From Rhodothermales bacterium (GTDB taxonomy: Bacteria; Bacteroidota; Rhodothermia; Rhodothermales; UBA10348), in contig JANQQV010000008.1 in the NCBI GenBank assembly GCA_028284865.1, forward strand, positions 1 through 64,000: a stretch of 64,000 nucleotides of DNA, in the 5' to 3' direction. Positions 46,415 through 64,000 of the stretch are shown one piece after another. The translations under genes were made by a program, and so were the position numbers. The first letter of the stretch is position 1. Each line of letters starts with the position of its first letter. The notes below the pieces were generated by a model. That model ran no database searches. It was not told where the DNA came from and was given only the letters and a program-made list of their open reading frames with translations.

Positions 46415-47011
46415 ATGGATCTGATCCAGGTTGACATCATCGGATTGTCTACGAGCCCATCAAGCGGCGGTGCCTATGCCCTCGTGCTGGGTGAGGTTGA
46501 CGGCAATCGCAGGCTCCCCATCATCATCGGCGCATTCGAAGCCCAGGCCATTGCACTGGAACTGGAGAAGATCCAGCCACCCCGCCCGATGACGCATGAC
46601 TTGATCCGCGACCTGTTCGATTCCGTTTCCGCAGATGTCTCGGATATCCTGATTGATGAACTGCGTGAAGGCACGTTTTTCGCCAAGATCCGCTACTCGG
46701 TGAACGGCTCTGATGCCCAGTTGGATTGCCGTCCCTCTGACGCCGTCGCACTGGCTGTTCGGGTTGGCGCACCCATTTTCGTGGCGCCGTCCGTCCTTGA
46801 CGAGGCGGGTATCCCGACCGAGGATGAGGACAACATGGCCGCGATCGAGTCGGCCGAGCCCGAAGTAGAAACGGAGCACGAGCCGGAGACACCCAAGAGC
46901 CCGCTCGAGAAGCTCGAAGACGATCTGGCCCAGGCCATCGCGGATGAGGACTACGAGCTGGCCGCCAAATTGAGAGACGACATCACCCGCCTACAAAGCG
47001 AACAGAATTGA
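46415..47011 (+). CDS. DUF151 bifunctional nuclease-domain protein with C-terminal UVR motif
   Basis: A 198-aa protein. The BFN/DUF151 domain (about 1-135) has LPIIIGAFEAQAIALEL and the DCRPSDAVALAVR motif. An acidic linker follows, then a UvrB/C-type coiled-coil motif (about 166-195, LEKLEDDLAQAIADEDYELAAKL), the usual layout in Bacteroidota. Related plant and thermophile proteins show DNase/RNase activity; the role in bacteria is unclear. Its TGA overlaps the bshC TTG start by 4 nt (TTGA). Confidence 0.9.
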   Translation: MDLIQVDIIGLSTSPSSGGAYALVLGEVDGNRRLPIIIGAFEAQAIALELEKIQPPRPMTHDLIRDLFDSVSADVSDILIDELREGTFFAKIRYSVNGSDAQLDCRPSDAVALAVRVGAPIFVAPSVLDEAGIPTEDEDNMAAIESAEPEVETEHEPETPKSPLEKLEDDLAQAIADEDYELAAKLRDDITRLQSEQN

Positions 47012-48621
47012 CCCGCCTCCCCTTTTCCTCGTTCTCTTCGTTCTCCCGCCTTTTCCGGGACTATACCGAATCCCCCACCGCGCTTGCCCCCTTCTTCAAC
47101 GGAGACTACCGGGACCCTGACGTCCTGGCGGCTTCCTGTGAGCGCGCGGCCGAAACGCATGCTGATCGGGACCTATTGATCAGCGCCATGCGGAATCAAG
47201 CCACGTCGTACGGTGTGCTTGATGCGACCAGCCATCTGATCGACAAACTCGCAGATCCGTCTTCGGCTGCGGTTGTCACGGGCCAGCAGCTGGGGCTTCT
47301 TGGCGGTCCTCTGTATACGGCATACAAGGCACTGAGCACGATCCAGCTCGCCGAACGCCTCGAGCAGCAGACCGGTCGACCTGTCGTACCGGTATTCTGG
47401 TTGGAGGGCGAGGACCATGACTTTGACGAGGTCGCGTCAGCCGGAATGATGGACGGAGATGACCCGTGCAAGGTCACCTACGATCCTGGACCAGACGGAC
47501 AGGCCGGCACGGCGGTTGGACGCATGACCGTGACCGATGGCATCTCGGAAGTCGTAAGCGAATTGGAGCGGTTGCTTCCGCCCACGGATTTCAAGGATGC
47601 ACTCATGGAGGGTATCCGCCAGGCGTACGCGCCCGGCACGCCCATGATTACGGCCTTCGTCGGGATGATGGAGCTTATTCTGGGGCCAGGACGTATCGCC
47701 TACGTATCACCGGACGACGCAGACCTGAAGCGGGCCGCAAGCCAGCTGTTCAAGCAAGAGCTGAACGACTTCGGGACATCGGAAGCACTGGTCAACACAG
47801 TTAGCGCTCAGTTGGAGCAGGACTGGCATGCCCAGGTACAGGTAAAGGCGACCAACCTCTTCCTGCACGGCGATGGCCGACGTACGGCGATTGATGCGGT
47901 GGAGAACGGATTCGAAACGCGCGATGGAGAGGCCTTTTCTCCTGAGTCGCTGCTCGGTCAGCTTTCCGACGACCCTGGATCCTTCTCCCCGAACGTGGTC
48001 ATGCGTCCCTTGATGCAGGATTGGCTACTGCCAACCGCTGCGTACGTGGCGGGTCCCGGCGAGGTCGCCTACTTCGCTCAATTCAAGGGCCTATACGACT
48101 GGGCGGGATTGCACATGCCCGTGGTCTATCCGCGTGCCTCGCTGACGGTGCTCGAGCGGCGCATTGGTCGCATTCTGGAAAAGAATGACATCGGCATCCC
48201 GGCCTTCGAAGAGCAGATTGATCAGCTGTTCCGGTCAATGGTCCTCGACAACATGGATGTGGATCTGGAGGAAGCATTCAAGGCAGCCTCAAGCGGGCTC
48301 CACCAGGTCATCAATCAGATCAAACCGGTTGTTGAAGGTGTGGATCGCTCGCTGGTCAAATCCACCGAAGCCACCCGGGCTGCCTTCATGAAGGAGTGGA
48401 ATCAGCTGAAAGGCCGCGTCATCAAGGCAGAGAAGCAGCAGCACGACGTCCTCAAGGGTCAGTTGGAGCGGGCTTCTTCCGCGCTTTTTCCATCAGGCAT
48501 TCCTCAGGAGCGCTTCCTTTCGCCCGTATATTTCCTGAACAAGTACGGGCCGGATTTCTTTTCCGGACTCACCGAGCGCATGGACCTGGATACCTCCGAG
48601 CACCAGGTACTCGAGCTCTGA
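47008..48621 (+). CDS. bshC: Bacillithiol biosynthesis cysteine-adding enzyme BshC
   Basis: A 537-aa enzyme adding cysteine to GlcN-malate in the last step of bacillithiol synthesis. It has the family length and the blocks VTGQQLGLLGGPLYTAYKA (about 91-109), PVFWLEGEDHDFDEV (about 132-146) and AYVAGPGEVAYFAQF, followed by the long coiled coil (about 420-495) and C-terminal NKYGPDFF. The TTG start at 47008 overlaps the upstream stop; no ATG lies near the conserved N-terminus (LPFSSFSSFSRLF). bshB1 lies after leuS. Confidence 0.93.
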   Translation: MTRLPFSSFSSFSRLFRDYTESPTALAPFFNGDYRDPDVLAASCERAAETHADRDLLISAMRNQATSYGVLDATSHLIDKLADPSSAAVVTGQQLGLLGGPLYTAYKALSTIQLAERLEQQTGRPVVPVFWLEGEDHDFDEVASAGMMDGDDPCKVTYDPGPDGQAGTAVGRMTVTDGISEVVSELERLLPPTDFKDALMEGIRQAYAPGTPMITAFVGMMELILGPGRIAYVSPDDADLKRAASQLFKQELNDFGTSEALVNTVSAQLEQDWHAQVQVKATNLFLHGDGRRTAIDAVENGFETRDGEAFSPESLLGQLSDDPGSFSPNVVMRPLMQDWLLPTAAYVAGPGEVAYFAQFKGLYDWAGLHMPVVYPRASLTVLERRIGRILEKNDIGIPAFEEQIDQLFRSMVLDNMDVDLEEAFKAASSGLHQVINQIKPVVEGVDRSLVKSTEATRAAFMKEWNQLKGRVIKAEKQQHDVLKGQLERASSALFPSGIPQERFLSPVYFLNKYGPDFFSGLTERMDLDTSEHQVLEL

Positions 48622-48637
48622 GCGCTGTACTTGATGT

Positions 48638-48705
48638 GACGCTTGGTCTTCGGACGCCGAACACCAGGCGTTGATCATTGAATTTCGCGCCTGCTGATAA
48701 GGCGC
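48638..48705 (+). promoter_or_regulatory. Structured leader of leuS (two competing hairpins)
   Basis: Stem 1 (48638-48672) pairs GACGC-TTGGT-C-TTCGG with CCGAA-C-ACCAG-GCGTT around an ACG loop (15 pairs, one C-C mismatch, two G-T). Stem 2 (48687-48705) is GCGCCT / AGGCGC. CAGGCG of stem 1 can instead pair with CGCCTG of stem 2, so the two are partly exclusive. No T-box features are seen. The role is unknown; it may just protect or end the bshC message. Confidence 0.4.
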
Positions 48706-48735
48706 TTCCCTATAAACCGCATTCAGTACCGCGGC

Positions 48736-51441
48736 ATGGCTGACTATCCCTTCCAGGAAATCGAACAGAAGTGGCAGCGCTTCTGGGAAACGGAACGAAC
48801 CTTTCGCACGCCCGACGATCCCGACACGTCCAAGCCGAAGTACTACGTGCTGGACATGTTTCCCTACCCTTCTGGTGTCGGACTCCACGTGGGGCACCCG
48901 CTCGGGTACATCGCGACGGATATCGTCTCCCGGTACAAGCGAATGAAGGGCTTTAACGTCCTTCACCCGATGGGTTTTGATGCGTTCGGCCTGCCGGCTG
49001 AACAGTTTGCCGTCGAGCATGGCGTGCACCCGCGGGTGACGACGGAGAAGAATATTGACAACATGCTTCGTCAGCTCAAGGCCTTGGGTCTGAGCTACGA
49101 CTGGGATCGGAAGCTGGCCACGACGGACGTTGACTACTACAAGTGGACGCAGTGGATCTTCCTTCAGCTCTTCAATTCCTGGTACGACGAAGAAGCCGAT
49201 AAAGCACGCCCCATCAGCGAACTCGAGGCCCGTTTCGCAGAGGAACGCGACGATTGGGGCAGCATGAGCGAAGGCGAGCGCGAAGCCGTGCTTTCGGAGC
49301 ACAGATTGGCCTTCCTTGACGAGGTACCGGTCAACTGGTGCCCTGCACTGGGCACGGTTCTCGCCAATGAGGAGGTGACCAACGAAGGACGTAGCGAACG
49401 CGGAAATCACCCTGTATTCCGGCGCCCGCTCAAGCAGTGGATGCTGCGTATCACCAAATACTCCGATCGCTTGATCCAGGATCTGGATGATGTAGACTGG
49501 CCCGAGCCAGTCAAGCTCATGCAGCGCAACTGGGTGGGACGAAGTGAGGGCGCGAACGTGGACTTCGCTGTCGACGGACATGATGCCGTCATTCAGGTGT
49601 TCACGACACGTCCTGACACCTTGTTTGGCGCGACGTACATGGTCCTGGCCCCCGAGCATCCGCTCGTCGACGCATTGACCACGGATGAACACCGCGACGC
49701 CGTGGCTGCCTACCGCAAAGAAGCGGCCGGCAAGACGGACATCGACCGCATGGCCGAGTCCAAGACGAAGACGGGAGTTTTCACGGGCGCCTATGCCATC
49801 AACCCGGCCGGCGGTTCGCGCATACCGATCTGGGTGGCTGACTATGTCCTGATGGGATACGGCACCGGGGCGATCATGGCTGTTCCTGCCCAGGATGAGC
49901 GCGACTGGGAATTCGCCGAAGTGTTTGACCTGCCCATCATCCGCACGGTTCAGCCACCCGAAGGATGGGAAGGCAAGGCCTTTACCGGAGATGGTCCTGC
50001 CATCAACTCGGAGTTCCTCAACGGGCTGGGCGTGAAGGACGCCAAGGCACGCATGATCGAGTGGCTCGAAGAACACGGTCATGGCGAAGGCACAATCACG
50101 TACAAATTGCGTGACTGGCTTTTCAGCCGGCAGCGCTACTGGGGCGAGCCCTTCCCGATCCTGCGCGGTGAAGACGGTAGCGTCCGCGCGGTCAACGAAA
50201 GCGACTTGCCTGTCGAGTTGCCGCCGATGGAGGACTTCAAGCCAACGGCCTCGGATGATCCGGATGCGCCTCCGCGTCCCCCTCTGGCGCGTGCCGACGA
50301 GTCCTGGCGCATTGTCGAGATTGACGGCAAACGCTACGAGCGTGAACTGAACACGATGCCTCAATGGGCTGGCTCCTGCTGGTACTATCTGCGCTTCATC
50401 GACAACCAGAATGACGAGACGTTTGCCAAGCCGTCCCGTGAATCCTACTGGATGGGTGACAACGGCGTCGATCTGTATATCGGAGGAGTCGAGCACGCCG
50501 TATTGCATTTGCTGTATGCGCGTTTTTGGCACAAAGTGTTGTTTGACCTCGGCCATGTCTCCACCAAGGAGCCGTTCGGCCGTCTGTTCAACCAGGGCTA
50601 TATCCAGGCCTACGCCTACCGCGACGAGCGAGGCATTGCGGTGGATGCCACCAAGGTGGTCGACCAGGACGGCAAGCCTGCCATGGAAGTCCAGGATCAG
50701 CCCGGACGCTCGTTCTTCTACGATGGCCAACCCGTCACGCAGGAGTACGGCAAGATGGGCAAGAGCCTGAAAAACGCCGTCTCCCCCGACGAGGTCAACG
50801 AAGCCTACGGGTGTGATACCCTGCGTCTCTATGAGATGTATATGGGTCCGCTCGAAGCCTCCAAGCCCTGGAATACCCGGGATATTGTGGGTGTGAACCG
50901 CTTCCTGCGTCGCGTATGGCGCAACTTCGTCGATGGCGAGTCGGACGCCCTCATGGTTTCTGATGACGCGCCAAGCGACGATCAGATGCGCGCGTTGCAT
51001 CGAACGATCGAGCGTGTCACCACGGACATGGAGCGACTGTCATTCAACACGTCCATCGCTGCACTCATCGAATTGCTGTCCGAATGGGTGTCCCTGGATG
51101 CCATCCCACGCTCACTGGCTGAGCCGTTTGTCCTGATGCTCTCCCCGCTTGCGCCTCACATGGCCGAAGAGCTTTGGCAGCGCATGGGGCACGAGGCCTC
51201 ACTCGCATACGAGCCCTGGCCGACCGCTGAGGAGATATGGCTGGTGGATGACTCCATCAAGCTGGCCGTTCAAGTCAATGGCAAGGTGCGCGGAACGATC
51301 TCGGTACCTGCTGATGCCTCCAAGGAGGATATCCTGGCTGCTGCCAAGCAGGATGAGAATGTCTCCCGTCACGTGGAAGGCAAAGAGATCCGACGCGAGA
51401 TCTACGTCCCGGGTCGCCTGGTCAACATTGTCGTAGGTTGA
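48736..51441 (+). CDS. leuS: Leucyl-tRNA synthetase
   Basis: A 901-aa class Ia synthetase. It has the HIGH-type motif HVGHPLGY (about 52-59), FGLPAEQ, the CP1 editing domain with TTRPDTLFGATYMVLAPEH (about 292-310), the WAGSCWYYLRF block, KMGKSLKN as KMSKS (about 675-682), and a C-terminal anticodon domain. Two small insertions (near residues 150-200 and 500-525) are acidic and not unusual for this phylum. Lies between two bacillithiol genes. Confidence 0.97.
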   Translation: MADYPFQEIEQKWQRFWETERTFRTPDDPDTSKPKYYVLDMFPYPSGVGLHVGHPLGYIATDIVSRYKRMKGFNVLHPMGFDAFGLPAEQFAVEHGVHPRVTTEKNIDNMLRQLKALGLSYDWDRKLATTDVDYYKWTQWIFLQLFNSWYDEEADKARPISELEARFAEERDDWGSMSEGEREAVLSEHRLAFLDEVPVNWCPALGTVLANEEVTNEGRSERGNHPVFRRPLKQWMLRITKYSDRLIQDLDDVDWPEPVKLMQRNWVGRSEGANVDFAVDGHDAVIQVFTTRPDTLFGATYMVLAPEHPLVDALTTDEHRDAVAAYRKEAAGKTDIDRMAESKTKTGVFTGAYAINPAGGSRIPIWVADYVLMGYGTGAIMAVPAQDERDWEFAEVFDLPIIRTVQPPEGWEGKAFTGDGPAINSEFLNGLGVKDAKARMIEWLEEHGHGEGTITYKLRDWLFSRQRYWGEPFPILRGEDGSVRAVNESDLPVELPPMEDFKPTASDDPDAPPRPPLARADESWRIVEIDGKRYERELNTMPQWAGSCWYYLRFIDNQNDETFAKPSRESYWMGDNGVDLYIGGVEHAVLHLLYARFWHKVLFDLGHVSTKEPFGRLFNQGYIQAYAYRDERGIAVDATKVVDQDGKPAMEVQDQPGRSFFYDGQPVTQEYGKMGKSLKNAVSPDEVNEAYGCDTLRLYEMYMGPLEASKPWNTRDIVGVNRFLRRVWRNFVDGESDALMVSDDAPSDDQMRALHRTIERVTTDMERLSFNTSIAALIELLSEWVSLDAIPRSLAEPFVLMLSPLAPHMAEELWQRMGHEASLAYEPWPTAEEIWLVDDSIKLAVQVNGKVRGTISVPADASKEDILAAAKQDENVSRHVEGKEIRREIYVPGRLVNIVVG

Positions 51442-51483
51442 CACAACCATCCAGCTGTCCCGGTTCGCAGACGTCCACGACTC

Positions 51484-52305
51484 ATGAGCTCCAACGTGAA
51501 AAACGTGAAATACGATGTTCTCGCCATCGGCTCCCACCCAGATGATGTGGAGTTGGGCTGTGGTGGGACCATTGCTGCCCTGATTGAGGCCGGATATCGT
51601 GTTGGCATTGTTGACCTGACTCGCGGTGAGTTGGGCTCCCGCGGAACGCCTGACCAACGGGACATGGAGGCGACCGAAGCTGCCCGCGTCCTTGGGGTCG
51701 ACCGTCGCGTGAACCTGGGTATCCCTGACGGCAACATCAAGAACAGTCGGAAGAATCGGCTTCGCGTCATCGCAGAGCTCAGGGCAACCCGACCCGACAT
51801 CCTCCTCATTCCGGCACCGGATTGCCGCCACCCGGATCATCCGGCGGGCGCCCGGCTCGTTTGCGATGCGGCTTTCCAGGCAGGACTGGTCAAGGTTGAG
51901 ACCCTCGATGGCTTCGGCGTCATGCAAGAGCCGTGGCGCCCGCAACACATCCTGCACTACATGCAGTCGATTCCTTTCGAGCCAACACTCGTCATGGATG
52001 TCTCGGAGTTTTGGGAAACGCGCAATGCGGCTGTACGAGCATTCAGTTCGCAGTTCCACACGGGAGGGGCTGGCGAAAGGAATCCCGGCCCAGAAGAGGC
52101 AGGCGAAGGCGGCGGCTTAAGTGAAGATCAAGGACCTGAAACGTTCATCTCCAATCCAGCCTTCATGGACTGGTATGACGCCCGCGCACGCACGTTCGGC
52201 TATCGGATCGGTGCCACCTTTGGAGAGCCGTTCCTCTACCGGCACGGCCCAATCGGCACCGACGACCTGGTCGGCATGCTGAAAAAAGAAAAGCCGTTTC
52301 GCTAG
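51484..52305 (+). CDS. bshB1: Bacillithiol biosynthesis deacetylase BshB1
   Basis: A 273-aa LmbE-type zinc deacetylase removing acetyl from GlcNAc-malate. The zinc motif AIGSHPDDVELGCGG (about 14-28), DLTRGELGSRGT (about 44-55), RHPDHPAGARL (about 119-129) and a C-terminal FGEPFLYRHGP match BshB1. A Gly/Glu-rich insertion (about 193-220) lies in the substrate loop. The 3' end also carries the terminator of the opposite operon. bshA was not seen in the window. Confidence 0.92.
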   Translation: MSSNVKNVKYDVLAIGSHPDDVELGCGGTIAALIEAGYRVGIVDLTRGELGSRGTPDQRDMEATEAARVLGVDRRVNLGIPDGNIKNSRKNRLRVIAELRATRPDILLIPAPDCRHPDHPAGARLVCDAAFQAGLVKVETLDGFGVMQEPWRPQHILHYMQSIPFEPTLVMDVSEFWETRNAAVRAFSSQFHTGGAGERNPGPEEAGEGGGLSEDQGPETFISNPAFMDWYDARARTFGYRIGATFGEPFLYRHGPIGTDDLVGMLKKEKPFR

Positions 52306-52357: not shown

Positions 52358-54280
52358 CTATCGGCGCCAGGTCAGGATGATGCGATTGCCACCCTGCTGT
52401 AGCGTCGGCAGGTAGACGTAGGTCACGTCCAGCTCCTCGATGTACTGCGTATCGCCTTCGCCGCCCGAGATGCGCATGTCCTTGTACTGACCTTCGCGTC
52501 CGCGAATCTCGAGTACGAGTCCGGACAACGTGTATTCGCTGTCATTGATGAGATCTAGGTGCATTTCATCGCGACCGATGGAGGCAATGACTGGCCGGAC
52601 CTGACCACGACGGCGCCACCAGGTCAACACATCGGATGTCGGTGCAATCCAGGCGCCCTCCCGCTTGGCGCGGGCAATGGTCGTCTCGAAGTCGGCCGCC
52701 TGGACCGAACGCGCTAGATACGTCTCCGGGTAGTACGGCAAGACGTAATACCCGTGGGCATTGCGGACGATTTCGTATGAGTCCTCAAACGAGCTGGCCA
52801 GCCCTTCCGTGACCGGAATGATCGACAGCGGATCGGGAAGCTCTTTCACCTCAGCCTGGGTCATGGGCGTCGAAACGACACTCTCCTCACCCGGCACGAA
52901 CAGCGGCATCTCTTCGACTTCGGCTTCCTGAAGATCTTCAAGCGTCAGTCGCTCACGGTAATCCACCTGTTCCCACCAGTCGATCACACCGGGCACGAGG
53001 CGCGGCTGCGACGGCAAGAGCAAGTAGTCTGCTTCGATTTCTTCCATCGCCCGGATGGTATTCCCATCATAGAAGCCGGCCGGCGGGTAGACGCCGTGGA
53101 TTTCCTGAACGCCGAGTTGCTGCCGGGCCGTGAGCACGCGATCACGCTGCACTTCCATGGGTTGGCCTTGCAGGACAAAGTCGTTTTCCGTGGTCAACCC
53201 GATTTCTCCCATGTCACGCATGCGGACCATGAGGTCCTGGAAAGCATGCACTTCCTCAGACGCCAGGAAGAAGCTCCCCGGGATCTGCTGAGTGTCCAGG
53301 ATGTCGAGCATCTTCTCGAGCCCATCCATGTACGTGAGCGGGTCAAAGCCAGCTGCAGCCATGGCGGCCACGCTGAACGCCATCGGGCGCGCTTCGGGCC
53401 ACGGAGCGAACGAGATGGAAGTTGTCCGGGCCAAAAGACCCAGCGCATTGACCATCAATCGCTGATAGTTCTCTTGCTGTTCGCGTTCACGCGATACGTC
53501 CTGCGGATTGAATCGCATCCAGACGGCCCGACCTTCGTCATACTCATTGTATACGATGGTCGTGAGGCTGTCGAATTCAGCCTGATCGCGTGGATCGTAC
53601 GTGATGAATCGACCGACAGCTTGTCCATCGGTCGGCTTCGCGAGCATCAACGGCTGCTGGGCAGCAACATTCATGTGGAAGCCCACATCGATGCCGTTCA
53701 CCAAAGGCGTGTTGCCATCAATGCTTTGCAGGAATCCGTACGGCTGGGCTTTGGGCGAGGCGACCAATTCGGCGCCAAACAGGTCACCGAACCAGTTGTT
53801 TTCCGTCGTCTGCCCTTCCTCGTCGAACAGGCCAAATCGACCAGAGGCGATCAACCCACCACCATCGCGAACGAAGTCGCGGATGCGTCGGCGCTGGCGA
53901 CTTGAAATCGCTTCTGTAGCGGGCATGATGACGACATAATAGTCATTGTCGATACCGCCACCGAGATCACGCTCGTCGATGAACTTGAACGGGATGCGCA
54001 GACCCAGAAGGAGCAGTTCCCAATAGTAGGTCGCGTTATCGACCATCGTCGTATCGCTCGTGATATAGCGATCCGTCTGGATGGACCGGAAAAGCGCTAC
54101 TCGCGGCTTCTTCGGATCGTCCAGATAGGGAAGGATATCCATGGCCACCGCCCGGGACGGCTGCTGGAAGTTGATCAGTCGCTGAACGGCCTGGGCATCG
54201 GCCGAGCGGGATCCCGCGATCGAACCGATGCACATCACCATCAAGACAGGCAGGGCGATATGTGCGAAACGACGCTTCAT
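52358..54280 (-). CDS. Exported GATase-like/NodB-like protein, probable pseudo-deacetylase 2
   Basis: A 640-aa exported protein (signal MKRRFAHIALPVLMVMCIG). Residues about 58-160 look like a class-I GATase-like domain (YYVVIMPATEAISSRQRRRIRDFV). Residues about 298-430 follow the order of a NodB polysaccharide deacetylase, but the metal and catalytic positions are lost: MAFSVAAM in place of TFDDG, MGEIGLTTEND in place of GHEIGNHT-H, and VYPP without the Arg of the RPPYG motif. A C-terminal beta domain (about 560-640) ends it. It is likely periplasmic, binding polysaccharide without deacetylating it. The ATG overlaps the previous stop by one base. Last gene of the operon. Confidence 0.65.
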   Translation of the reverse strand: MKRRFAHIALPVLMVMCIGSIAGSRSADAQAVQRLINFQQPSRAVAMDILPYLDDPKKPRVALFRSIQTDRYITSDTTMVDNATYYWELLLLGLRIPFKFIDERDLGGGIDNDYYVVIMPATEAISSRQRRRIRDFVRDGGGLIASGRFGLFDEEGQTTENNWFGDLFGAELVASPKAQPYGFLQSIDGNTPLVNGIDVGFHMNVAAQQPLMLAKPTDGQAVGRFITYDPRDQAEFDSLTTIVYNEYDEGRAVWMRFNPQDVSREREQQENYQRLMVNALGLLARTTSISFAPWPEARPMAFSVAAMAAAGFDPLTYMDGLEKMLDILDTQQIPGSFFLASEEVHAFQDLMVRMRDMGEIGLTTENDFVLQGQPMEVQRDRVLTARQQLGVQEIHGVYPPAGFYDGNTIRAMEEIEADYLLLPSQPRLVPGVIDWWEQVDYRERLTLEDLQEAEVEEMPLFVPGEESVVSTPMTQAEVKELPDPLSIIPVTEGLASSFEDSYEIVRNAHGYYVLPYYPETYLARSVQAADFETTIARAKREGAWIAPTSDVLTWWRRRGQVRPVIASIGRDEMHLDLINDSEYTLSGLVLEIRGREGQYKDMRISGGEGDTQYIEELDVTYVYLPTLQQGGNRIILTWRR

Positions 54281-56607
54281 CACTCCTGATCTTCCAGATC
54301 GACCGCCGCCATTTCCGGACCGAGAAGGTCAATGTGGAAAATGCGGTACTGTTGGGGTTTCAGTTCCCGGATCGACAGTTCGAGGATCGTTCCTCCGTCA
54401 AGCAGCTTGTACGGCGGGTTGTCCACGTCATCCGGTGTGAGACGGAAGATGTTGATCAGCTCCGGTCGCACGTTTACGTCCAGGACAGGACGTCCCAGGG
54501 AAATGCTGACCGTGATTTCGTCGGCAGTAGAACCGTTGTCATTCGAGATGGACACGAACAGACGATTCGGACTGCGCTGCTCGACATACGCGTTCAGTGC
54601 ACGCTTCAAACGCCACCAGTGGGCAATGGAGTCACCCGAGGCGATCCAGAAATTCTGGTCTTTTGCGCGACGGACGATGGCTTGCAGCGTGGACAGGTTG
54701 CCGCTCTGACTCATGATCTCTGGATCGTAGGCCATGTTGTAGAGGCCTCCTTCGTAGGAGACACGTTCCAGCGACTCAAGCAGCAGGGAGTTCATCAAGT
54801 CTGCAGAAGCACCCTGCAATCCACGCGTGATATCACGGTCAGAATGCTGCGTCGTACCGATTCGGGTTAGAGGTGAGTACTCGTCACCCATGATCTTCGG
54901 AGCCATCTTGCGACCAATGGAGTCCGGCAAGAAGTAGGTATAGTCGGATCGGTACAGGCCACCCATGGTGTTTCTTCCGACCAGGCCACGCTCGATGGAG
55001 CGATACCCTTTGACGGGACCTCCCACGTAGCTCTCCAGCATCTCCCGCAGTCGAGTCAGGCGCCGGGCCTGATCGAGCGGAAAGCCGTCGGCTTCAACAC
55101 GCAAGGAATCGTACACGCCCACATCACCCTGGCGATACATACGTGCCAGTTGCGGGGCATAGGGCGAGGCAACTTCCGGAGCCACGAAATACGTGCCCGG
55201 GGCACCTTCGTCTTCCAACAGGTCGACAATGGGCAGGAATGCCTCAATTTTGGATCGTGTATCAGCCGAGCCGGTAAGCATGGCGGCGGAGTCATGGCCA
55301 CCCGGCCAGTGATGAACCCAAACGGTCGGCTGACGACGCAGGTACTGCATCGCATTGGAGAAGTAGTAGGCTATGGCTTCCCAATCTTCAAGATCTTCGC
55401 GGCCGACACCCATGGCGTCGCGCTGGAAGCCCATCCAGACGAATCGGCCTTCGCCGTAGGTACCGTACGCCAATCCGGTCGTGTTCTCCGGGTTGTCAGC
55501 TCCTACAATATTGTCCGTTGCAAAGTCATACCAGAATCCTACCGGAGTCGTCCGATCGGGATCAACAACCCGTGCTTTCACACCCTGGTTGTATACCTGC
55601 ACCTTTACCCGGTATCCCGGATTGATGTTGGCCGTCAACGGCGTGTGGGCCCGCAATGTCAGGCGGCGGATACCACCACTCGTGCGGGGATACGGGATTT
55701 CCTGGTCGGGGTCGAAACCCGTCCAGGTGAAATAAGACACCACAACGGCGTCCTGTTCGCGCATCACACCGTCCAGATCCCGCATGCGGGTCACGATCGG
55801 CTCGGCGCGAGCAAAGTCAACTGTAGGTCGTGCGGAATTCAGCGAGTCAAACCAGACATAGTCCCGAAGCGGGGCAAAGTCGGCTTCCTCGGCCAAGGCT
55901 TGCTGCTGTTCTCGCAGTGCCTCGTTCGTCCCCTGATCCGTCGCAGACGTCGGGGGAATGAAGTTCTCATTCTCGGTGATGTACTTCGGCAGGTACAAGC
56001 CAGGTGGCGTGAACCCGGGGAAGGTGTCCGAATAGATTCGGAAATTCCAGTTTCCTCGGTCCACGAAGCCCTGAAACTCCAGTCCGAAGGTGTCTTCCAT
56101 GAAGCTCCACCCTCGCCAGGATCCGTCCTCGCGGTAGATCCCGGGTTGCCAGGTGGCCAGGACGCTGCCTCCGGACGACATGAATTCCTGGATCCGTCTG
56201 ATCTGTAGATCACTCAGCGCGCGGGCAGATGGAAGGACCAGCACTTCGAAATCTTCGAGGGCTCCCGCCTCGAGATCCTGATCGCTGATGTCCTCGAAGG
56301 GAATGTTCTGAGGTTCTGCTTCGAGGAAGAACTCCCTCCAGGAAAGGAGGGTCTGGTCTACCCACGCGGTCGAGGTGTCACGATACGTGATGGCCCGATG
56401 TGCATTACGGGTATAGTTGGAGTTGAGCAGCGCGACACGAGGACGGACATCGATACCAATCTTGGCAGGAGATGCGTCCTGGATGCGGAATGCACCAAGG
56501 GCAGACTCCAGCAGGAGAATGTATACCAGGACTCCTGCCGCCAGGGAGGTCACTCCCAGGGTCAGGAACCAGATGGTACTCACTCGCTCAAGATGCCAAT
56601 TGCGCAT
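54280..56607 (-). CDS. Membrane-anchored GATase-like/NodB-like protein, probable pseudo-deacetylase 1
   Basis: A 775-aa protein with one N-terminal TM helix (about 11-37) and a large periplasmic part. A GATase-like domain (about 55-180, EVLVLPSARALSDLQIRRIQEF) is followed by a beta-rich region (about 270-400) and a NodB-like fold (about 438-690). Catalytic positions are lost here too: LTGSAD for TFDDG, QGDVGVYDS for GHEIGNHT, KGYRSIERG for fRpPyG. The domain order matches the next gene, so the two are paralogs. The N-terminal anchor suggests it works beside the synthase like PgaB, but without catalysis. Translationally coupled downstream (TGATG). Confidence 0.65.
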   Translation of the reverse strand: MRNWHLERVSTIWFLTLGVTSLAAGVLVYILLLESALGAFRIQDASPAKIGIDVRPRVALLNSNYTRNAHRAITYRDTSTAWVDQTLLSWREFFLEAEPQNIPFEDISDQDLEAGALEDFEVLVLPSARALSDLQIRRIQEFMSSGGSVLATWQPGIYREDGSWRGWSFMEDTFGLEFQGFVDRGNWNFRIYSDTFPGFTPPGLYLPKYITENENFIPPTSATDQGTNEALREQQQALAEEADFAPLRDYVWFDSLNSARPTVDFARAEPIVTRMRDLDGVMREQDAVVVSYFTWTGFDPDQEIPYPRTSGGIRRLTLRAHTPLTANINPGYRVKVQVYNQGVKARVVDPDRTTPVGFWYDFATDNIVGADNPENTTGLAYGTYGEGRFVWMGFQRDAMGVGREDLEDWEAIAYYFSNAMQYLRRQPTVWVHHWPGGHDSAAMLTGSADTRSKIEAFLPIVDLLEDEGAPGTYFVAPEVASPYAPQLARMYRQGDVGVYDSLRVEADGFPLDQARRLTRLREMLESYVGGPVKGYRSIERGLVGRNTMGGLYRSDYTYFLPDSIGRKMAPKIMGDEYSPLTRIGTTQHSDRDITRGLQGASADLMNSLLLESLERVSYEGGLYNMAYDPEIMSQSGNLSTLQAIVRRAKDQNFWIASGDSIAHWWRLKRALNAYVEQRSPNRLFVSISNDNGSTADEITVSISLGRPVLDVNVRPELINIFRLTPDDVDNPPYKLLDGGTILELSIRELKPQQYRIFHIDLLGPEMAAVDLEDQE

Positions 56608-56690: not shown

Positions 56691-57161
56691 TTAGAGCCAG
56701 GCAAATCCGTCCTGCTCCTCATCCTTTTCTTCCTTGGCTTGCTGTGCGGCATCCTCAGGCTGAACCGGGACGAAGCCCTCGTCCGTGTATTCCCAGAACA
56801 GGGAATTCTGCGGTTCGGATGGCTGCGCCTGCATCGATGCGGGTTGTCCCTGCATGGATGTTGGCTGGGCTTGCATCCGGGGCTGCACCTGCTGCATCGG
56901 AGCCTGTTGGCTCGGGGCAGCTGCCGTCGGAGCAACGAAGACGTTGGTCGACGGAGCGGTCTGCTGGGCAGGAGCGGCCAGAGTAGTCTGCTGCGGCGTG
57001 ACGAGAACGTGTGGTTCCTGGACGTATTGCGTCTGGACGACACCTTCTTCACGGGCGCGGCGCTCGCGAATCTTGTACAACACGTAGGCCGCGACTGCCA
57101 GAATGAACGTGGCAATCGTACCTACGAGGATGATTGTCGAGAGAATGGGTACTAGTTGCAT
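56691..57161 (-). CDS. Small single-TM protein with Gln/Pro-rich tail (possible synthase accessory subunit)
   Basis: A 156-aa protein: TM helix at about 6-28, a basic stretch YKIRERRARE, then a Gln/Pro/Ala/Met-rich low-complexity region (about 45-115) with repeats such as MQGQPASMQAQP, and an acidic end with FWEYTDEGF and DGFAWL. No homolog recognised. By position directly after the GT2 synthase it may play the part of PgaD in the Pga system, a small membrane partner, though PgaD has two TM helices. The Q/P-rich tail resembles the linker of the ATPase protein in the same operon. Confidence 0.6.
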   Translation of the reverse strand: MQLVPILSTIILVGTIATFILAVAAYVLYKIRERRAREEGVVQTQYVQEPHVLVTPQQTTLAAPAQQTAPSTNVFVAPTAAAPSQQAPMQQVQPRMQAQPTSMQGQPASMQAQPSEPQNSLFWEYTDEGFVPVQPEDAAQQAKEEKDEEQDGFAWL

Positions 57162-57351: not shown

Positions 57352-58866
57352 TTACTGGCGGGCGCCGGTACCGATTCGTTCCAGCTTACCCCAGTTCATC
57401 CCGAATCCGAGGAATTCCTCGATCGTGGCAAACGTCTTCGTCACGTCAATCATGAGGATGAAGAAGAGCCGGTAGAACAGGGAATAGAACACCAGGCGAA
57501 TCTCTTCCTTTTCCACTGCGATACAGTAGAGCGCCGCGATCAGGTCCAGGATGGTCAGTGAGAGCCACCAATACACGAGGTAGTAGCTCATGTCGAAGAC
57601 CAGGGCGATGAAGATGAAGTACGCGTTGGCAAAGACGTTCATGATTGGCCAGATCAACGACTCGAAGGCCATGGACCACATCACAATCGTACCACCGAAG
57701 TTGATGGTCGGATTGAAGAACAGGTCACGGTGCTTCCGGACGGCCTGGAGAATGCCGCGCGTCCAGCGGTAGCGCTGTTTGAGCAGGTCCACAATACGAT
57801 CGGGAGCCTCGGTAAAGGACTTGGCATCCGGTTCGTACTCGACCCGCCATCCGGCGCGGATGATTTTCAGGGTGATGTCGGCGTCTTCGGCAAACGTGTC
57901 CGAAGAGTACCAGCCAGCATCCATGATGGCCTGCTTCCTGAACAGCCCAAGCGGCCCGGGAATGATGTTCACCATCTTCAGGAACGACTGCGCGGAGCGG
58001 GCCATATTCAGCCCTTCCACGTACTCCAGTGCCTGGAGGGTCGTCCACAAGTTGTTTCGGTTGAGCACCTTCACGTTGCCGGCAATGGCACCAAGGCGCG
58101 GGTCAACGAAGTGACGAATCGCTTTGCGCAGCGTATCGGGAGACAGCTGGGAATCGCCATCCACGTTGAGCAGATAGTCGTAGTTGGAGACCTGGATACC
58201 TGCGTTCAAGGCCGTGGACTTGCCGCCATTCCCCTTTTCGACCATGCGGACCTCCACTTCCCCGTTTCGATACACACCCACCAGCGTGTTTGCTACTGCA
58301 CGGGTGTCATCCGTCGAACCATCGTCGACCAGGATGATCTCGTACTTCGGGTAGTCCATGCCGATCAGCGACTGGACCGTGGACTCGAGGAGAATTCCTT
58401 CGTTGTACGCCGGAACGATGATCGAGATGGGCGGAAGGAAATTGGGGTCATGACCTGTCGTCACGGTGTGCTTCACCGTGTTGAGATACGCCAGATTCAT
58501 CAGGGACAGGTATCGGAAGAGCAATATGACCAGGAAAAGCACCAGGGCCACAATCGACGAATACACCACGAGGCCTTCCCAGGTCATGGTATTCGACTCT
58601 CCCGTCAGTCTGAAAAGAAATCCGCCTGGATCGTACAGAAACAGGTAGATCAGAGCGAACAGCACGAGCGAAAGGAGACCGTACACAAAGATGCGCCTGA
58701 GGAGCATCGACTTGGTCTCCTCGGCAGATGGAATGTCATCCTCCTTGCGACGCACAGGAACGAATTCCGTACGGTCGACAGGTACCTGCGGGCGCAGGTA
58801 CTCCACGTCGCCGTCCGAAGCTCTCGCCTCGTCGCGGGATCGATCTATGTTCCGGTTGTCTGCCAT
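57352..58866 (-). CDS. Processive family-2 glycosyltransferase (polysaccharide synthase)
   Basis: A 504-aa inner-membrane enzyme. Two TM helices (about 58-78, 97-118) precede a GT-A domain (about 145-375) with DDGSTDD (181-187), DGD (236-238), the catalytic EDAD (327-330) and QRYRW (364-368), the hallmarks of processive beta-glycan synthases (PgaC/IcaA, BcsA, hyaluronan synthase). At least four more TM helices follow. There is no PilZ domain, so any c-di-GMP control must come from another protein. The N-terminal 50 residues are charged. The sugar used cannot be read from sequence; PgaC-like sequences usually take UDP-GlcNAc. Between the barrel gene and the small TM protein. Confidence 0.9.
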   Translation of the reverse strand: MADNRNIDRSRDEARASDGDVEYLRPQVPVDRTEFVPVRRKEDDIPSAEETKSMLLRRIFVYGLLSLVLFALIYLFLYDPGGFLFRLTGESNTMTWEGLVVYSSIVALVLFLVILLFRYLSLMNLAYLNTVKHTVTTGHDPNFLPPISIIVPAYNEGILLESTVQSLIGMDYPKYEIILVDDGSTDDTRAVANTLVGVYRNGEVEVRMVEKGNGGKSTALNAGIQVSNYDYLLNVDGDSQLSPDTLRKAIRHFVDPRLGAIAGNVKVLNRNNLWTTLQALEYVEGLNMARSAQSFLKMVNIIPGPLGLFRKQAIMDAGWYSSDTFAEDADITLKIIRAGWRVEYEPDAKSFTEAPDRIVDLLKQRYRWTRGILQAVRKHRDLFFNPTINFGGTIVMWSMAFESLIWPIMNVFANAYFIFIALVFDMSYYLVYWWLSLTILDLIAALYCIAVEKEEIRLVFYSLFYRLFFILMIDVTKTFATIEEFLGFGMNWGKLERIGTGARQ

Positions 58867-58960: not shown

Positions 58961-61900
58961 TTAAAGTGTCCAGTACGCGGCTGCGCCGAAGGTGAATGTG
59001 TTGTATTGATCCAGGAACGATGTTGCACCGGAGCCGAGCGTTCGGGTCGACGCACCCATCGTGGTCCTTAGCGTGACCGAGAGCTTGTTGGCCAATCGCT
59101 TGATGTAGTCCATTTCGAATCGTCTACCCACGAAGCCGGAGCTGCGGGCGATGATGCCGATGGCACCACGGATTCGGAGGTATTCGTCCTCCGAGATGTC
59201 GCGCTCATACTCCAGGAAGAAGTCGTAGGACTGATAGCGACGGGGCGAGAAATACGTATCGACTGTCGTGCGGTAGTGCTGACCGTAGTACGTGATTCCG
59301 AGATAGGTGTATGGGATGATCCGGTAGCCGGCCTCGAGCTGGATGTTCGTACCGACATTGATGTCGTTGGTCGAGGCCGAGTTGCCGAAGTTGTCGCGGA
59401 CGACGTTTAGCGCGATGCTGGCTCGGGCCTTCAGTACGGAGTCCGGCATGAGCGTCATCGACTCGCCACGCATGTCAAGCTGCGTCAAGCGCAGATTGAA
59501 CTGGCCACCACCTGCGGACCAGAGATCGATCGAGCCTTCGCCCGTACGCAGGCCGACGCTTCCTTTGTAGCGACCCACTTCCTGACGCCAGTAACGGATG
59601 TTTCCGTACATCACCGTACGCTGACCTTCGTAGTCGTAGACCCCTACCTCACCCGAAATGCGATTGGTAAAGGCATCCCGCACGAGGTAGTTCGGTGGAG
59701 TCAGGTCGACATACAGTCCACCAAAGATCTGGTTGACGCGGCCACGCACGACTTCCGAACCCGGAACGAGTCGGCGCGAACCCGAGATGAAATGCGAGTT
59801 GACGCCGGCCGAGAGGACTGAATTGATCGGCAGCGTGACCTGGGTTTGCATACCCTGCGCCCAGCGGTCATACTGCGTACCGCCGCCGCGCGAACGCGTG
59901 GCATCGGCCGTAGGAACGATGAGACCAGTGAAGTCCATGCCCGTCCATTCGCCCGACTCGATCAGGGAAGCTCGAACGTCGGCATCGATGCTCACGGTGC
60001 GCTCTTCAACGGTCGGGGAATCCTCGACGATCAGGAGCGCCTCCTCATAGATGGAGCGCGCCTGGGCATAGAGCCCGAGCTGACGCATGGACTCGGCCTG
60101 CATGAAGCGGACTTCGTAGTCACGAGGGTTCTCGCGCTGGAGGCGCTCGAGCGTAGCGAGAGCGCCTGACCAGTCCTGGCGATAAGTCTGGACACGAGCC
60201 ATCTCCTTGGCTACATCATACTCGTACAGCTCAGAGAGCAAGGACTGGTAGATGGAAACGGAGTTTTCGTAGTCCTCTTTGGCGGCATACACACCAGCCA
60301 GTTCGAGAAGCTCGTCACGGGTACGCTTGCCGCGAACCTCGAAATACTCTTCGTAGGCCACGATTGCATCGTCGAAACGACGGGCTGCAACCAGGCGACG
60401 CGCTTCATTCAGGACGGCAAACTGCTCTTCCTGTTCGCGACGAAGGGTTTCGCGGGCGATCAGGTGCTTCATCGCATCAATTTGCGTGGCGTAGCGAGCG
60501 TCATCCATCTGCTCAGCACGAGCCAGCAGGAATTCAGCCGATTCCAGATCGCCGCGGCGCAGACGGTAGGCGGACGCTTCTACAAGTAGTTCCGTGTCCT
60601 TCATGTTGCGGTCGGCGAGCAGCGCAGATAGGAATCCTTCTCCACGGGCATCCAAGTTGTCGAGCGCGAAGCCCGTCATGACATAGAGTCGCTGGATGAC
60701 CGGGTTGTTCGGATCACGATCCGCAAGCCAGCTAGCCTGATCGGACGCGCGCTCGGGATAACCATTTACGCGCAGGGCATCCACATATTGGGCACGGATC
60801 TCCCGGTCCTCAGGACGCAACTCGATGACGCGGACATAAGCCCGGATCACATCGTCGCTGCGCTCAAGAATGGTGTACAGCGGAATCAGCTCGCGCCATG
60901 CGTCCTCGTCAGCCGGATTCGTCGCGATGATCTCTTCGAGCTCAGCAACCCGCTGGCGCGTGCGATTGATGCGCGTTTCCTCGATGGCCTGCAGGCGACC
61001 GCGGTAACCCGGATCCAGTGGATCGGCATAACGCGGGTCCGTCAGGGTCTCGAGCGCCTCGGCATAGCGTGGCGGCTCGGCGGCCATGAGGGCATCCACG
61101 AGCTGATACCGGACCATGAGGTCGTTCGGATTGAACCGCAGGCGATACGTGTGGCGATCGACCGGGTAAATCGGTGACTGACCATCCTGGATGATGAGAC
61201 CTTCGTCCGTCTGGATGAAGAGGGTCACCCACTCGCGGGTCGTTCCATAGTCTGGCTCGAGAAAGACCAACTGATCGTAGGCTTCCCAGAACCGGTCATA
61301 CTTGATGAACTGGCGTGTCAGCTCGAACCGCAATTCGGCGTTGTTCGGGCTGGCATTGACCTGACGAATCAGTCGGTCAACAATGAATTCGGTTCGCTGT
61401 GGCTGCTCCGTGACCAGCGTCTGGAGTCTGTTTTCCACCAGCGTGTAGCGGCGGTTCCAGTCCGGAGAGTTGCGGTGACGGGCGGCCAGGATATCCAGCT
61501 GCTGCTGGGCCTCGAAGTAACGACCGTTCTCGATCAGGAGATCAACGAGACGATACCGCTTGGCATCATTTCCGGGCTCACTCTGGAGCTCGCGATAGAG
61601 CACATCAATGGGATAATTGGATACCGTCTGAACGCCTCCCGGATCGCGTGACGTGCCGAGACAGTCTTTCGCTTCCTGGTTGTTCGGATTCAACATCAGG
61701 GCCTGCTCACAGGCCTCCTGTGCCGTGCGGAACTTGCTCTGCCAGATCCGGAAGTAGCCGAGACGCATCCAGAGATCGTCGTTCGTGGCGTAGATCTCCG
61801 TGTAACGCTCAGCGACTTCTTCTCCGAGATCGTTGTCGCCGGGATAGGCGGCAATGGCAATCAGGTAGCGCTGGACCACGTCAGGCGTTCCCTGTGTGCG

Positions 61901-62398
61901 ATCCAGGTATTCACCATACTGACGCGCGGCCTCCCGGAAGTTGCGAGTATCGTACAACGCGTCCGCATACCGGATGCGATAAGCAAGATTCTCGGGATTG
62001 AGGGATACCAGGCGACTCAAACTTTCGAGGTTGGCCGAACCGGTGGCGCTGACATTCCCATCCTGTTGGCCGAGATTTCCTTGCGCCAACCGCACCCGAC
62101 GGAGACCGTCAATGGCTTCCTGGCTTCCCGGGTTGATCCGGATGACGCGCTCGAAATCACGGGCGGCACTCAGATAGTCCCGACGACCCTCGTGAGCCGT
62201 TGCGCGCAGCAACAAAGGTCGTGTATCCGTGGATTCCGCGGTAATGATTTCATTGAGGATCACGATGGCTTCGCTGTAGCGAGCCTCTTCGATGAAATCC
62301 TCTGCCCGTTCCTGTGCAACAAGATCCTGTGCCTGGACGGCAGCAGGAAGCGTCAGGAGCAGACAGCAAAACGATATGATTCCGGCAAGGTGGCGCAT
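58961..62398 (-). CDS. TPR-rich outer-membrane export porin (BcsC/PelB/PgaA-like)
   Basis: A 1145-aa protein. The signal peptide ends near QAQDL (about residue 25). TPR-like helices fill about 30-830 (for example FEEAIVILNEII-type pairs, ARDFERVIRINPGS, EACEQALMLNPNNQEAKDCLG). The last ~300 residues form a beta-barrel ending in an aromatic/Leu terminus (GAAAYWTL), with a YFSPRRY segment (typical of BcsC/PelB barrels, YFSPxxY). Such proteins guide the polymer through the periplasm and outer membrane. An unusual length of TPR region (about 20 repeats). It is encoded directly upstream of the synthase, with 94 bp between them. Confidence 0.82.
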   Translation of the reverse strand: MRHLAGIISFCCLLLTLPAAVQAQDLVAQERAEDFIEEARYSEAIVILNEIITAESTDTRPLLLRATAHEGRRDYLSAARDFERVIRINPGSQEAIDGLRRVRLAQGNLGQQDGNVSATGSANLESLSRLVSLNPENLAYRIRYADALYDTRNFREAARQYGEYLDRTQGTPDVVQRYLIAIAAYPGDNDLGEEVAERYTEIYATNDDLWMRLGYFRIWQSKFRTAQEACEQALMLNPNNQEAKDCLGTSRDPGGVQTVSNYPIDVLYRELQSEPGNDAKRYRLVDLLIENGRYFEAQQQLDILAARHRNSPDWNRRYTLVENRLQTLVTEQPQRTEFIVDRLIRQVNASPNNAELRFELTRQFIKYDRFWEAYDQLVFLEPDYGTTREWVTLFIQTDEGLIIQDGQSPIYPVDRHTYRLRFNPNDLMVRYQLVDALMAAEPPRYAEALETLTDPRYADPLDPGYRGRLQAIEETRINRTRQRVAELEEIIATNPADEDAWRELIPLYTILERSDDVIRAYVRVIELRPEDREIRAQYVDALRVNGYPERASDQASWLADRDPNNPVIQRLYVMTGFALDNLDARGEGFLSALLADRNMKDTELLVEASAYRLRRGDLESAEFLLARAEQMDDARYATQIDAMKHLIARETLRREQEEQFAVLNEARRLVAARRFDDAIVAYEEYFEVRGKRTRDELLELAGVYAAKEDYENSVSIYQSLLSELYEYDVAKEMARVQTYRQDWSGALATLERLQRENPRDYEVRFMQAESMRQLGLYAQARSIYEEALLIVEDSPTVEERTVSIDADVRASLIESGEWTGMDFTGLIVPTADATRSRGGGTQYDRWAQGMQTQVTLPINSVLSAGVNSHFISGSRRLVPGSEVVRGRVNQIFGGLYVDLTPPNYLVRDAFTNRISGEVGVYDYEGQRTVMYGNIRYWRQEVGRYKGSVGLRTGEGSIDLWSAGGGQFNLRLTQLDMRGESMTLMPDSVLKARASIALNVVRDNFGNSASTNDINVGTNIQLEAGYRIIPYTYLGITYYGQHYRTTVDTYFSPRRYQSYDFFLEYERDISEDEYLRIRGAIGIIARSSGFVGRRFEMDYIKRLANKLSVTLRTTMGASTRTLGSGATSFLDQYNTFTFGAAAYWTL

Positions 62399-62474: not shown

Positions 62475-64000
62475 TCAGGCTTGGTCTAGCGCGTAGCTGA
62501 GGAATTCAGGGGCTGTTTTGAATGGACGACCGTCCGGGACGACGATGGCGGAAACCGAATGGAGCAAGTGATCAGCCTGCTGGGGGCTTTCGGCCCGCAG
62601 ACGATCCTTCAGGCGTGCGAAGAAGGACTGAGCCTCCTCGGCACGACTGTTTCCAAGCAGAACGACCATGCGTTCGACGTCGGGAAGGGCCAGCATGTCA
62701 TCCACCGGTCCGAGCTCAGCACGGACCAGGTCCATGAGGAAATCGAAATCGAATGGGCGGACTTGCTGGCTTGATCGGTCCATTCTGAGAGCAAGCAGCA
62801 GGAAGGGCTGGTGCATCGTTTCCCGGTCGGCAAACGTCTGATCCAGTTTCTGCTGGAAGGCAGCACGGTTCGTGTAGTCGACCTCGACATGCATGGGAGA
62901 CTGGGCTCCAGCGTCAGGGCCGGCCGCAGGCGCGTGCTCAGCGGTGTCCTCAGAGAAGGGTGATGCAGACTGAGGGGGTGCCGGAGGCGTCTGCATCGGG
63001 GGTGTCGCCGGCTGAGGGGGAGGTGCCGGTGACGGTTGGAATGTTGGCGGAGGAGTCGGCGCCGCAGGAGACTGCGGGGCGAATTCCTGGTTACCTGCCG
63101 CTGGCGGGCTGCCCGCTGACGTCTGGAAGGTCGGCGGAAGCGACTGATCGGTCGAACCCGGCTGGGACGACGGGCTGGCCGGAGTCGGCGCAGCGGAAGG
63201 CTGCGGCTCGAACGGCTGGGCAGGTTGTTCGAATGCTTGCTGTACCGATGGGCTCGGCTGATAAGGATTCTGGGGCTGCGAGGGCTGCTGAGTTGGTGCA
63301 GGCGCAGGAATCGGAACCGTCGGGCTGAATCCAGCTGAGAACCCGGAAGAAGAATCCTCTTCCTCGTTCGGAGTGAAAATGAAGCTGTCGTCCTCCTGCT
63401 CGGGCTCAGAAGCTTCTGGCTCGGGAGGCGTGGCCGGCGCGGCGGGAGCCTGCGTCTGAACCACGAGATCTTCCAGATCCCAGTAGTCAACCACCTGGCG
63501 CTTGATGTGCCCGATGTGAGGGATCAGGGAAATACGACGTTTGGTCGTCGATGGACTGTCTTCGCCCAGCTCGATGCGGATACTGCCCGTCATCTGGCTG
63601 GCCATGAATTCGATTACACGAGCAGACTGCTGGTTCGCCGGCTCCGGCATCACCAAAATCGTGGTCGTGTCGAGCGAATCAATCTGCTCGAGGAACTGGA
63701 TGAACTCGTTGCGGAACCGGTCATAGGAGCGGAAGGCGACGAACGGCATGAAGTCGTTCATGACCAGACGCGTCGGGCGGTGCTGGCGGATCAACGTTAC
63801 GAGATCCCAGAGGGCGCGGGAGACGCCGTCATCGCCCATGTTCTGCAGATTCATCAACGGGGGAACGCGAACGAGTCGGACGATACCTGAATCGTAGGAT
63901 TCCCGGAGATTGAATCCGATCGAGGCCGCCTGGATCATCAGATCCTTCTGGCGATCGGGAGAAACAAAAAGGGTCGGTTCGCCAAGCGCTGCGCCCGTGC
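62475..64000 (-). CDS. KaiC/RecA-like ATPase domain fused to degenerate GGDEF-like domain (partial, 5' end outside window)
   Basis: 507 visible residues; the frame is open to the window end, so the N-terminus (with any Walker A) is missing. The visible N-terminal ~170 residues (starting TGAALGEPTLFVSPDRQKD) look like a KaiC/RAD55-type ATPase core. A Pro/Gln/Ala-rich linker (about 175-360) follows. The last ~135 residues match the GGDEF order: LLLALRMD, then DMLALPDVERMVVLL where a GGDEF domain has D-l-v-a-R-y-GGDEF-a-v-LL, then NSRAEEAQSFFARL. The signature and the I-site Arg are replaced (DVERM, PVDD), so it is neither a cyclase nor a clear c-di-GMP binder. The layout recalls BcsE of cellulose systems. 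Confidence 0.65.
   Translation of the reverse strand, partial: TGAALGEPTLFVSPDRQKDLMIQAASIGFNLRESYDSGIVRLVRVPPLMNLQNMGDDGVSRALWDLVTLIRQHRPTRLVMNDFMPFVAFRSYDRFRNEFIQFLEQIDSLDTTTILVMPEPANQQSARVIEFMASQMTGSIRIELGEDSPSTTKRRISLIPHIGHIKRQVVDYWDLEDLVVQTQAPAAPATPPEPEASEPEQEDDSFIFTPNEEEDSSSGFSAGFSPTVPIPAPAPTQQPSQPQNPYQPSPSVQQAFEQPAQPFEPQPSAAPTPASPSSQPGSTDQSLPPTFQTSAGSPPAAGNQEFAPQSPAAPTPPPTFQPSPAPPPQPATPPMQTPPAPPQSASPFSEDTAEHAPAAGPDAGAQSPMHVEVDYTNRAAFQQKLDQTFADRETMHQPFLLLALRMDRSSQQVRPFDFDFLMDLVRAELGPVDDMLALPDVERMVVLLGNSRAEEAQSFFARLKDRLRAESPQQADHLLHSVSAIVVPDGRPFKTAPEFLSYALDQA

Follow-up and report, generated by a model that had tools for sequence, protein, structure and literature searches.

Tandem NodB-fold paralogs without catalytic residues in a conserved, probable exopolysaccharide operon of Rhodothermales

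The stretch of DNA analysed here (the window) comprises the first 64,000 nucleotides of contig JANQQV010000008.1 from a Rhodothermales bacterium of the phylum Bacteroidota, and its minus strand carries, at 52358-56607, two adjacent paralogous genes whose products retain the NodB-like fold of polysaccharide deacetylases and lack its catalytic residues. Gene A (54280..56607), the first transcribed of the pair, is an open reading frame (ORF) of 775 aa, and gene B (52358..54283), which begins with GTG and whose start overlaps the stop of A by 4 bp, is one of 641 aa. Their paralogy is evident both from direct comparison (BLASTP E 2e-18) and from profile-profile alignment (probability 100%, E 3e-51, 545 columns). 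In A, an N-terminal membrane anchor (residues about 11-35, read by eye and from a helix in the structural model) precedes a GATase/ThuA-like domain that is split (about 55-185 and 311-425) by an insertion at 186-310, followed by a NodB-like domain without catalytic residues (about 426-672, delimited from the model and the motif alignment) and a C-terminal beta-sandwich (673-762). B begins with a signal peptide, recognised in the same manner, and continues with a GATase/ThuA-like domain (about 46-290, PF08532), an equally depleted NodB-like domain (291-562, PF01522) with a long low-confidence linker at about 419-496, and a C-terminal beta-sandwich (563-641).

Several lines of evidence support this domain build. 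Both Pfam matches of B, Glyco_hydro_42M (PF08532, 4.3e-6) and Polysacc_deac_1 (PF01522, 3.4e-5), pass the curated cut-offs, A has only sub-threshold matches in Pfam, and in NCBIfam no family is assigned to A and the matches of B stay below threshold. Profile hidden Markov model searches of the PDB with both proteins recovered CE4 deacetylases of known structure, along with the GATase-like domain found in GH42 enzymes. AlphaFold models, built in both cases on shallow alignments of seven rows, reached a mean predicted local distance difference test score (pLDDT) of 65.7 for A, with the NodB core blocks mostly at 80-92, and of 56.6 for B. Compared with PDB structures by VIA-align, the A model matched the CE4 NodB fold of 3rxz with Z 21.8 over 236 residues and the GH42 GATase-like domain of 5xb7 with Z 19.6 over 209 residues; the B model matched 3rxz with Z 18.6 over 225 residues and 5xb7 with Z 18.5 at a root-mean-square deviation of 6.8 A. 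Both proteins accordingly show the (beta/alpha)7 fold of the CE4/NodB group, and both share the order GATase/ThuA-like, NodB-like and beta-sandwich. By Pfam, neither contains a glycoside hydrolase barrel, and only the anchor or signal peptide precedes the GATase domain.

Motif positions in the NodB domains were set against 18 intact CE4 domains of relatives in an alignment with anchors flanking every motif, and residues were tallied over 20 A rows and 18 B rows. In A, the Asp pair of motif 1 (MT1) is replaced by G446/S447, the two His of MT2 by Y499/R503 and the MT5 His by D628, and the MT3 loop is rewritten as GYRS. The equivalent residues in B are A306/A307, T364/D368 and Y518, with Y399 in place of the MT3 Arg and the Pro-Pro retained. 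No row has Asp at either MT1 position or His at either MT2 position (0/20 for A and 0/18 for B in each case); the Asp-His-His metal site and the catalytic base are missing from every ortholog aligned. Within the window's own family, the MT5 His is also missing in 19 of 20 A and 15 of 18 B rows. What persists is the MT4 Asp (D562 in 17/20 A, D441 in 18/18 B) and, in B, a nearly invariant loop, YPPxGxxDxNT, in which Pro-Pro-x-Gly is retained with Tyr for Arg in 16 of 18 rows. An earlier note, made by eye from the sequence alone, had described tandem paralogs at these coordinates on the minus strand, with a GATase-like then NodB-like order, motifs lost in both copies and the rest of the fold kept, and on each of these points it is borne out, including the stretches in which it placed the lost motifs.

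These alignments bear on the possibility that the motifs have been misplaced or the metal site rebuilt elsewhere, such that A and B would be ordinary metal-dependent deacetylases. D500, invariant in A, and D368, present in 17 of 18 B rows, lie near the old metal site and are compatible with such a rearrangement. However, the alignment to intact domains is anchored around each motif, an intact paralog described below displays the real motifs of this family, and in neither protein does any His column of the NodB domain reach 80% conservation, which argues against a rebuilt Asp-His-His site. With conservation of His and Asp columns serving as a stand-in for a three-dimensional pocket check, no such site is visible, and this explanation appears highly improbable.

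The A-B tandem pair is found not only in the window's family but also in other families of its order, the relatives named here being recorded as Rhodothermales or Bacteroidota assemblies. One family (G029, G043, G053) has A and no match to B. Another class of the phylum harbours homologs of A that lack the 125-aa insertion, and there 134 of 164 genomes of one order (hereafter the second order) contain a match. These homologs have likewise lost MT1 and MT2 and retain the MT4 Asp in 21 and the MT5 His in 20 of 22 rows, two of which are pieces of second-copy type; the presence of an equally degenerate A homolog in a second order indicates that the loss in A is ancient. In one genus of the second order (genomes G235 and G516), an intact second family member lies directly downstream of the pseudo-A copy (L126, 8087-9904; L198, 5954-7687) and contains all five motifs, namely CDVE, GLHGDDH, FRPPE, the MT4 Asp and the MT5 His. 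Elsewhere in that order, other genera have degenerate second copies, some of them truncated or very divergent. In phylogenetic trees, A and its counterparts form one clade (support 99/96) and B another (100/100), with the intact proteins in neither; a 526-aa second copy on a very long branch (L131) was included in the first tree and excluded from later ones. Approximately unbiased (AU) tests comparing one with two catalytic losses gave p 0.24-0.30 for the alternatives, and the loss in both copies need not represent two independent events.

This distribution is relevant to a metal-independent activity, in which A or B would be an enzyme like the allantoinase PuuE, with different residues carrying out its chemistry. 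That the metal triad is lost does not by itself prove that all catalysis is gone, since PuuE, which adopts a NodB fold and has no MT1 Asp pair, works without metal (PMC10967932). Structures of PuuE type rank among the best matches to A (Z 20.0-20.4), and the MT4 Asp and MT5 His kept by most second-order A homologs are both kept by PuuE. A and B of the window, in contrast, do not keep the MT5 His, which is gone from most of their orthologs in the counts given above, and no other His is conserved, making a PuuE-like activity improbable.

Sequence constraint differs between the two proteins. Between B and its ortholog in G017, identity is 82% in the first NodB half and 71% in the GATase domain, and the corresponding values against G005 are 62% and 54%. 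For A and its G017 ortholog, identity is 69% in the NodB domain, 73-80% in the other domains and 86% in the membrane anchor. On these comparisons, the pseudo-active NodB domain appears to be under the stronger constraint within B and to be somewhat relaxed within A. That the NodB half is the best conserved part of B is as expected of a working site rather than a decaying one. The two genes could alternatively be decaying remnants of an ancestral pairing of a pseudoenzyme with an active enzyme, kept by inertia, as the truncated or very divergent second copies of the second order might suggest; against this, several genera and families retain full-length, in-frame tandem copies, many of the B orthologs within the window's family being at 47-71% identity, and decay seems a most unlikely account. 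Many aromatic residues are also conserved in A and B, including in the GATase-like domain, which would suit a polymer-binding role.

Upstream of A, the operon comprises, in transcriptional order, a KaiC-like ATPase, a TPR/barrel protein, a family-2 glycosyltransferase (GT2) synthase and a small one-helix protein, followed by A and usually B, an order kept in two orders of the phylum. All of these genes lie on the minus strand. The ATPase (62475..63998 in the window; 671 aa, 62475-64490 on the contig) is the conserved first gene and matches PF06745 KaiC (4.2e-17) and KaiC structures (7.4e-16); a Pro-rich linker leads to a C-terminal region that by eye resembles a degenerate GGDEF domain. In architecture it resembles the cellulose regulator BcsE, which combines a RecA-like domain with a degenerate REC-GGDEF module (PMC7439463), the GGDEF-like part of this likeness being judged by eye. 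The 1145-aa export protein (58961..62398) has a signal peptide, many TPR repeats with TPR family matches, weak matches to BcsC and PgaA models, and a C-terminal beta-strand-rich region that, read by eye, may form an outer-membrane barrel. The synthase (57352..58866, 504 aa) is a processive PgaC/NodC-like enzyme with the DDGS, DGD, EDAD and QRYRW motifs; its best NCBIfam match is TIGR03937 PgaC (E 1e-56, 192.7 bits against an equivalog cut-off of 422.3), and it also matches NodC (9.5e-35). The small protein (56691..57161, 156 aa) has one N-terminal membrane helix (MQLVPILSTIILVGTIATFILAV), a Pro/Gln-rich tail and no significant Pfam match. Its start, MELxPILSxIILxATISTFxLA, recurs beside the synthase in relatives of both orders, the tail is not conserved, and its placement resembles that of BcsF. 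Taken together, the operon probably makes and exports a biofilm polysaccharide.

Variations and neighbours of the operon were also recorded. In the second order, an SGNH/GDSL hydrolase that could acetylate or de-O-acetylate a polymer often lies between the TPR and synthase genes (L124:12683-14080, L129:5344-6570), with genes for an fn3 protein and for a PAS/histidine kinase/receiver protein further downstream. The family that has A without B (locus L068:8224-13447) carries a 336-aa protein in place of the small membrane protein, and one of its genomes has a GHL10 glycoside hydrolase-like gene after A. The plus strand at 46415-52305 carries genes for a bifunctional nuclease, bshC, leuS and a BshB-like PIG-L protein, i.e. 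bacillithiol genes. The PIG-L de-N-acetylase gene (51484-52305), close to bshC and leuS, adjoins B on the opposite strand, and the PIG-L/leuS block adjoins B in several relatives. A minus-strand ORF of 835 aa (48493-51000) lies almost wholly antisense to leuS and is probably a mechanical artefact of codon usage.

A kept fold, residues lost in every ortholog, and constraint within a conserved operon make a non-catalytic job the simplest reading of A and B, which would then be periplasmic polymer-handling subunits. The earlier note had proposed selection for such a job from loss in both copies; the kept fold, the universal absence of the residues, the constraint and the operon favour that proposal, with the adjustment that the loss is ancient and that its presence in both copies does not require two events. 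More specifically, with a probability of roughly 0.6, A and B are pseudo-deacetylases of a synthase-dependent exopolysaccharide system that bind the polymer and guide it unmodified. In this scheme, the GT2 synthase, facing the cytoplasm, would make a polymer of amino-sugar-like kind, as its similarity to PgaC and NodC suggests; A would be held in the inner membrane by its anchor, with B free in the periplasm; and a groove formed jointly by the NodB domain and the neighbouring GATase/ThuA-like (CBM87-like) domain would bind the emerging chain, which would then pass, shielded and without modification, to the TPR arm of the export protein in the outer membrane. A precedent exists in the export of poly-N-acetylglucosamine (PNAG), where the TPR domain of PgaA binds the polymer as well as the deacetylase domain of its partner PgaB (PMC9384988), and by analogy A and B would most probably capture the chain and deliver it to the TPR protein unchanged.

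Some observations weigh against polymer guidance. Of the large domains of A, the NodB domain shows the least conservation, as would fit a purely structural role; polymer binding is argued by analogy, and the groove lies beyond what models from seven-row alignments can judge, especially at the low pLDDT of B. Many other operon-bearing relatives carry separate intact CE4 proteins, so that another enzyme could act as deacetylase outside the window genome. In favour of polymer guidance, B is the sole PF01522 match in that genome, which is 97.7% complete, and in six relatives (G003, G005, G007, G010, G017, G020) such matches are to A or B only, although this model would miss very divergent deacetylases, A itself being unlisted in the window genome. 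A and B might instead be assembly scaffolds that join synthase and export protein by protein contacts, with no polymer binding. The membrane anchoring of A, the better conservation of its GATase part and C-terminal sandwich than of its NodB domain, and the contact that the authors of a PelA study propose between its alpha/beta domain and PelB (PMC12022489) would suit a scaffold, whereas the conserved NodB half and MT3 loop of B would not, nor would the polymer binding known for the matching domain of the Aspergillus fumigatus deacetylase Agd3 (PMC7229062); a pure scaffold is considered unlikely. A broader and more tentative proposal, which falls somewhat short of even odds, is that the operon represents an unrecognised class of synthase-dependent exopolysaccharide secretion in two orders, in which an Agd3/PelA-shaped pseudoenzyme pair stands in for the usual deacetylase/hydrolase and acts as a non-covalent polymer chaperone, a KaiC-like ATPase takes the place of a BcsE-type regulator, and a few lineages keep a catalytic copy.

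NodB pseudoenzymes as a kind are known, and inactive NodB proteins with structural roles have been described in Bacillus (PMC4505593). The paired use, architecture and operon found here appear undescribed in the open-licence literature searched, which contained no paper on this operon in Rhodothermales, and the main text of a large survey of exopolysaccharide operons includes no Rhodothermus, Salinibacter, Ignavibacter or Bacteroidetes. For Pel and PNAG, a functional biofilm polymer requires the periplasmic deacetylase, and a PelA deacetylase mutant makes no extracellular Pel (PMC10269871). If the proposed role is correct, a widespread system with both copies inactive, here in a genome otherwise lacking PF01522 proteins, would set the fold's polymer-guiding function apart from its chemistry. 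One genus, with its intact second copy, offers a natural pair for telling catalytic from binding residues of the pocket, and the automatic label "polysaccharide deacetylase" would be misleading for proteins of this type.

Among known systems, PgaB and IcaB share the operon setting, with a PgaC-like synthase, a TPR outer-membrane porin and a periplasmic NodB protein; PgaB, however, has catalytic residues and combines its NodB domain with a glycoside hydrolase domain, whereas A and B have neither and carry a GATase-like domain instead. The Bacillus anthracis CE4 pseudoenzymes BA3943 and BA0330/BA0331 likewise have a NodB fold with little or no deacetylase activity, BA0330/BA0331 binding the cell wall in a structural role, but they are Gram-positive proteins acting on the cell wall outside any exopolysaccharide operon. 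The closest architectures are those of Agd3 and PelA, a link that rests on published domain descriptions rather than on direct alignment; both are absent from the 50 structure matches listed for A and B, and these lists, being filled by single domains, are uninformative on the point. Agd3, a CE18 deacetylase with a CBM87 domain, has the same order of GATase/ThuA-like alpha/beta/alpha, NodB-like and beta-sandwich domains and acts on an exopolysaccharide, as proposed for A and B, but has a metal site and is active; its CBM87 polymer-binding aromatics are W292 and W344. PelA of Pseudomonas, a CE21 deacetylase (PDB 9CGY), is periplasmic, partners a TPR outer-membrane protein and has mixed alpha/beta, NodB-like and beta-rich domains in the same order (PMC12022489); it differs in its N-terminal GH166 hydrolase domain and active metal site, and the operon described here has a GT2 synthase and, by annotation, no counterpart of PelD, PelE, PelF or PelG. 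Human NDST1, a heparan sulfate N-deacetylase/N-sulfotransferase regarded by its authors as an Agd3 homolog (PMC10864358), joins Rossmann-like and NodB-like domains in the same order and appears in the Foldseek list for A (E 7e-7), although it is eukaryotic, catalytically active and equipped with a sulfotransferase domain. In all three of these proteins, the alpha/beta domain that would correspond to the GATase/ThuA-like domain of A and B binds, or is thought to bind, the polymer.

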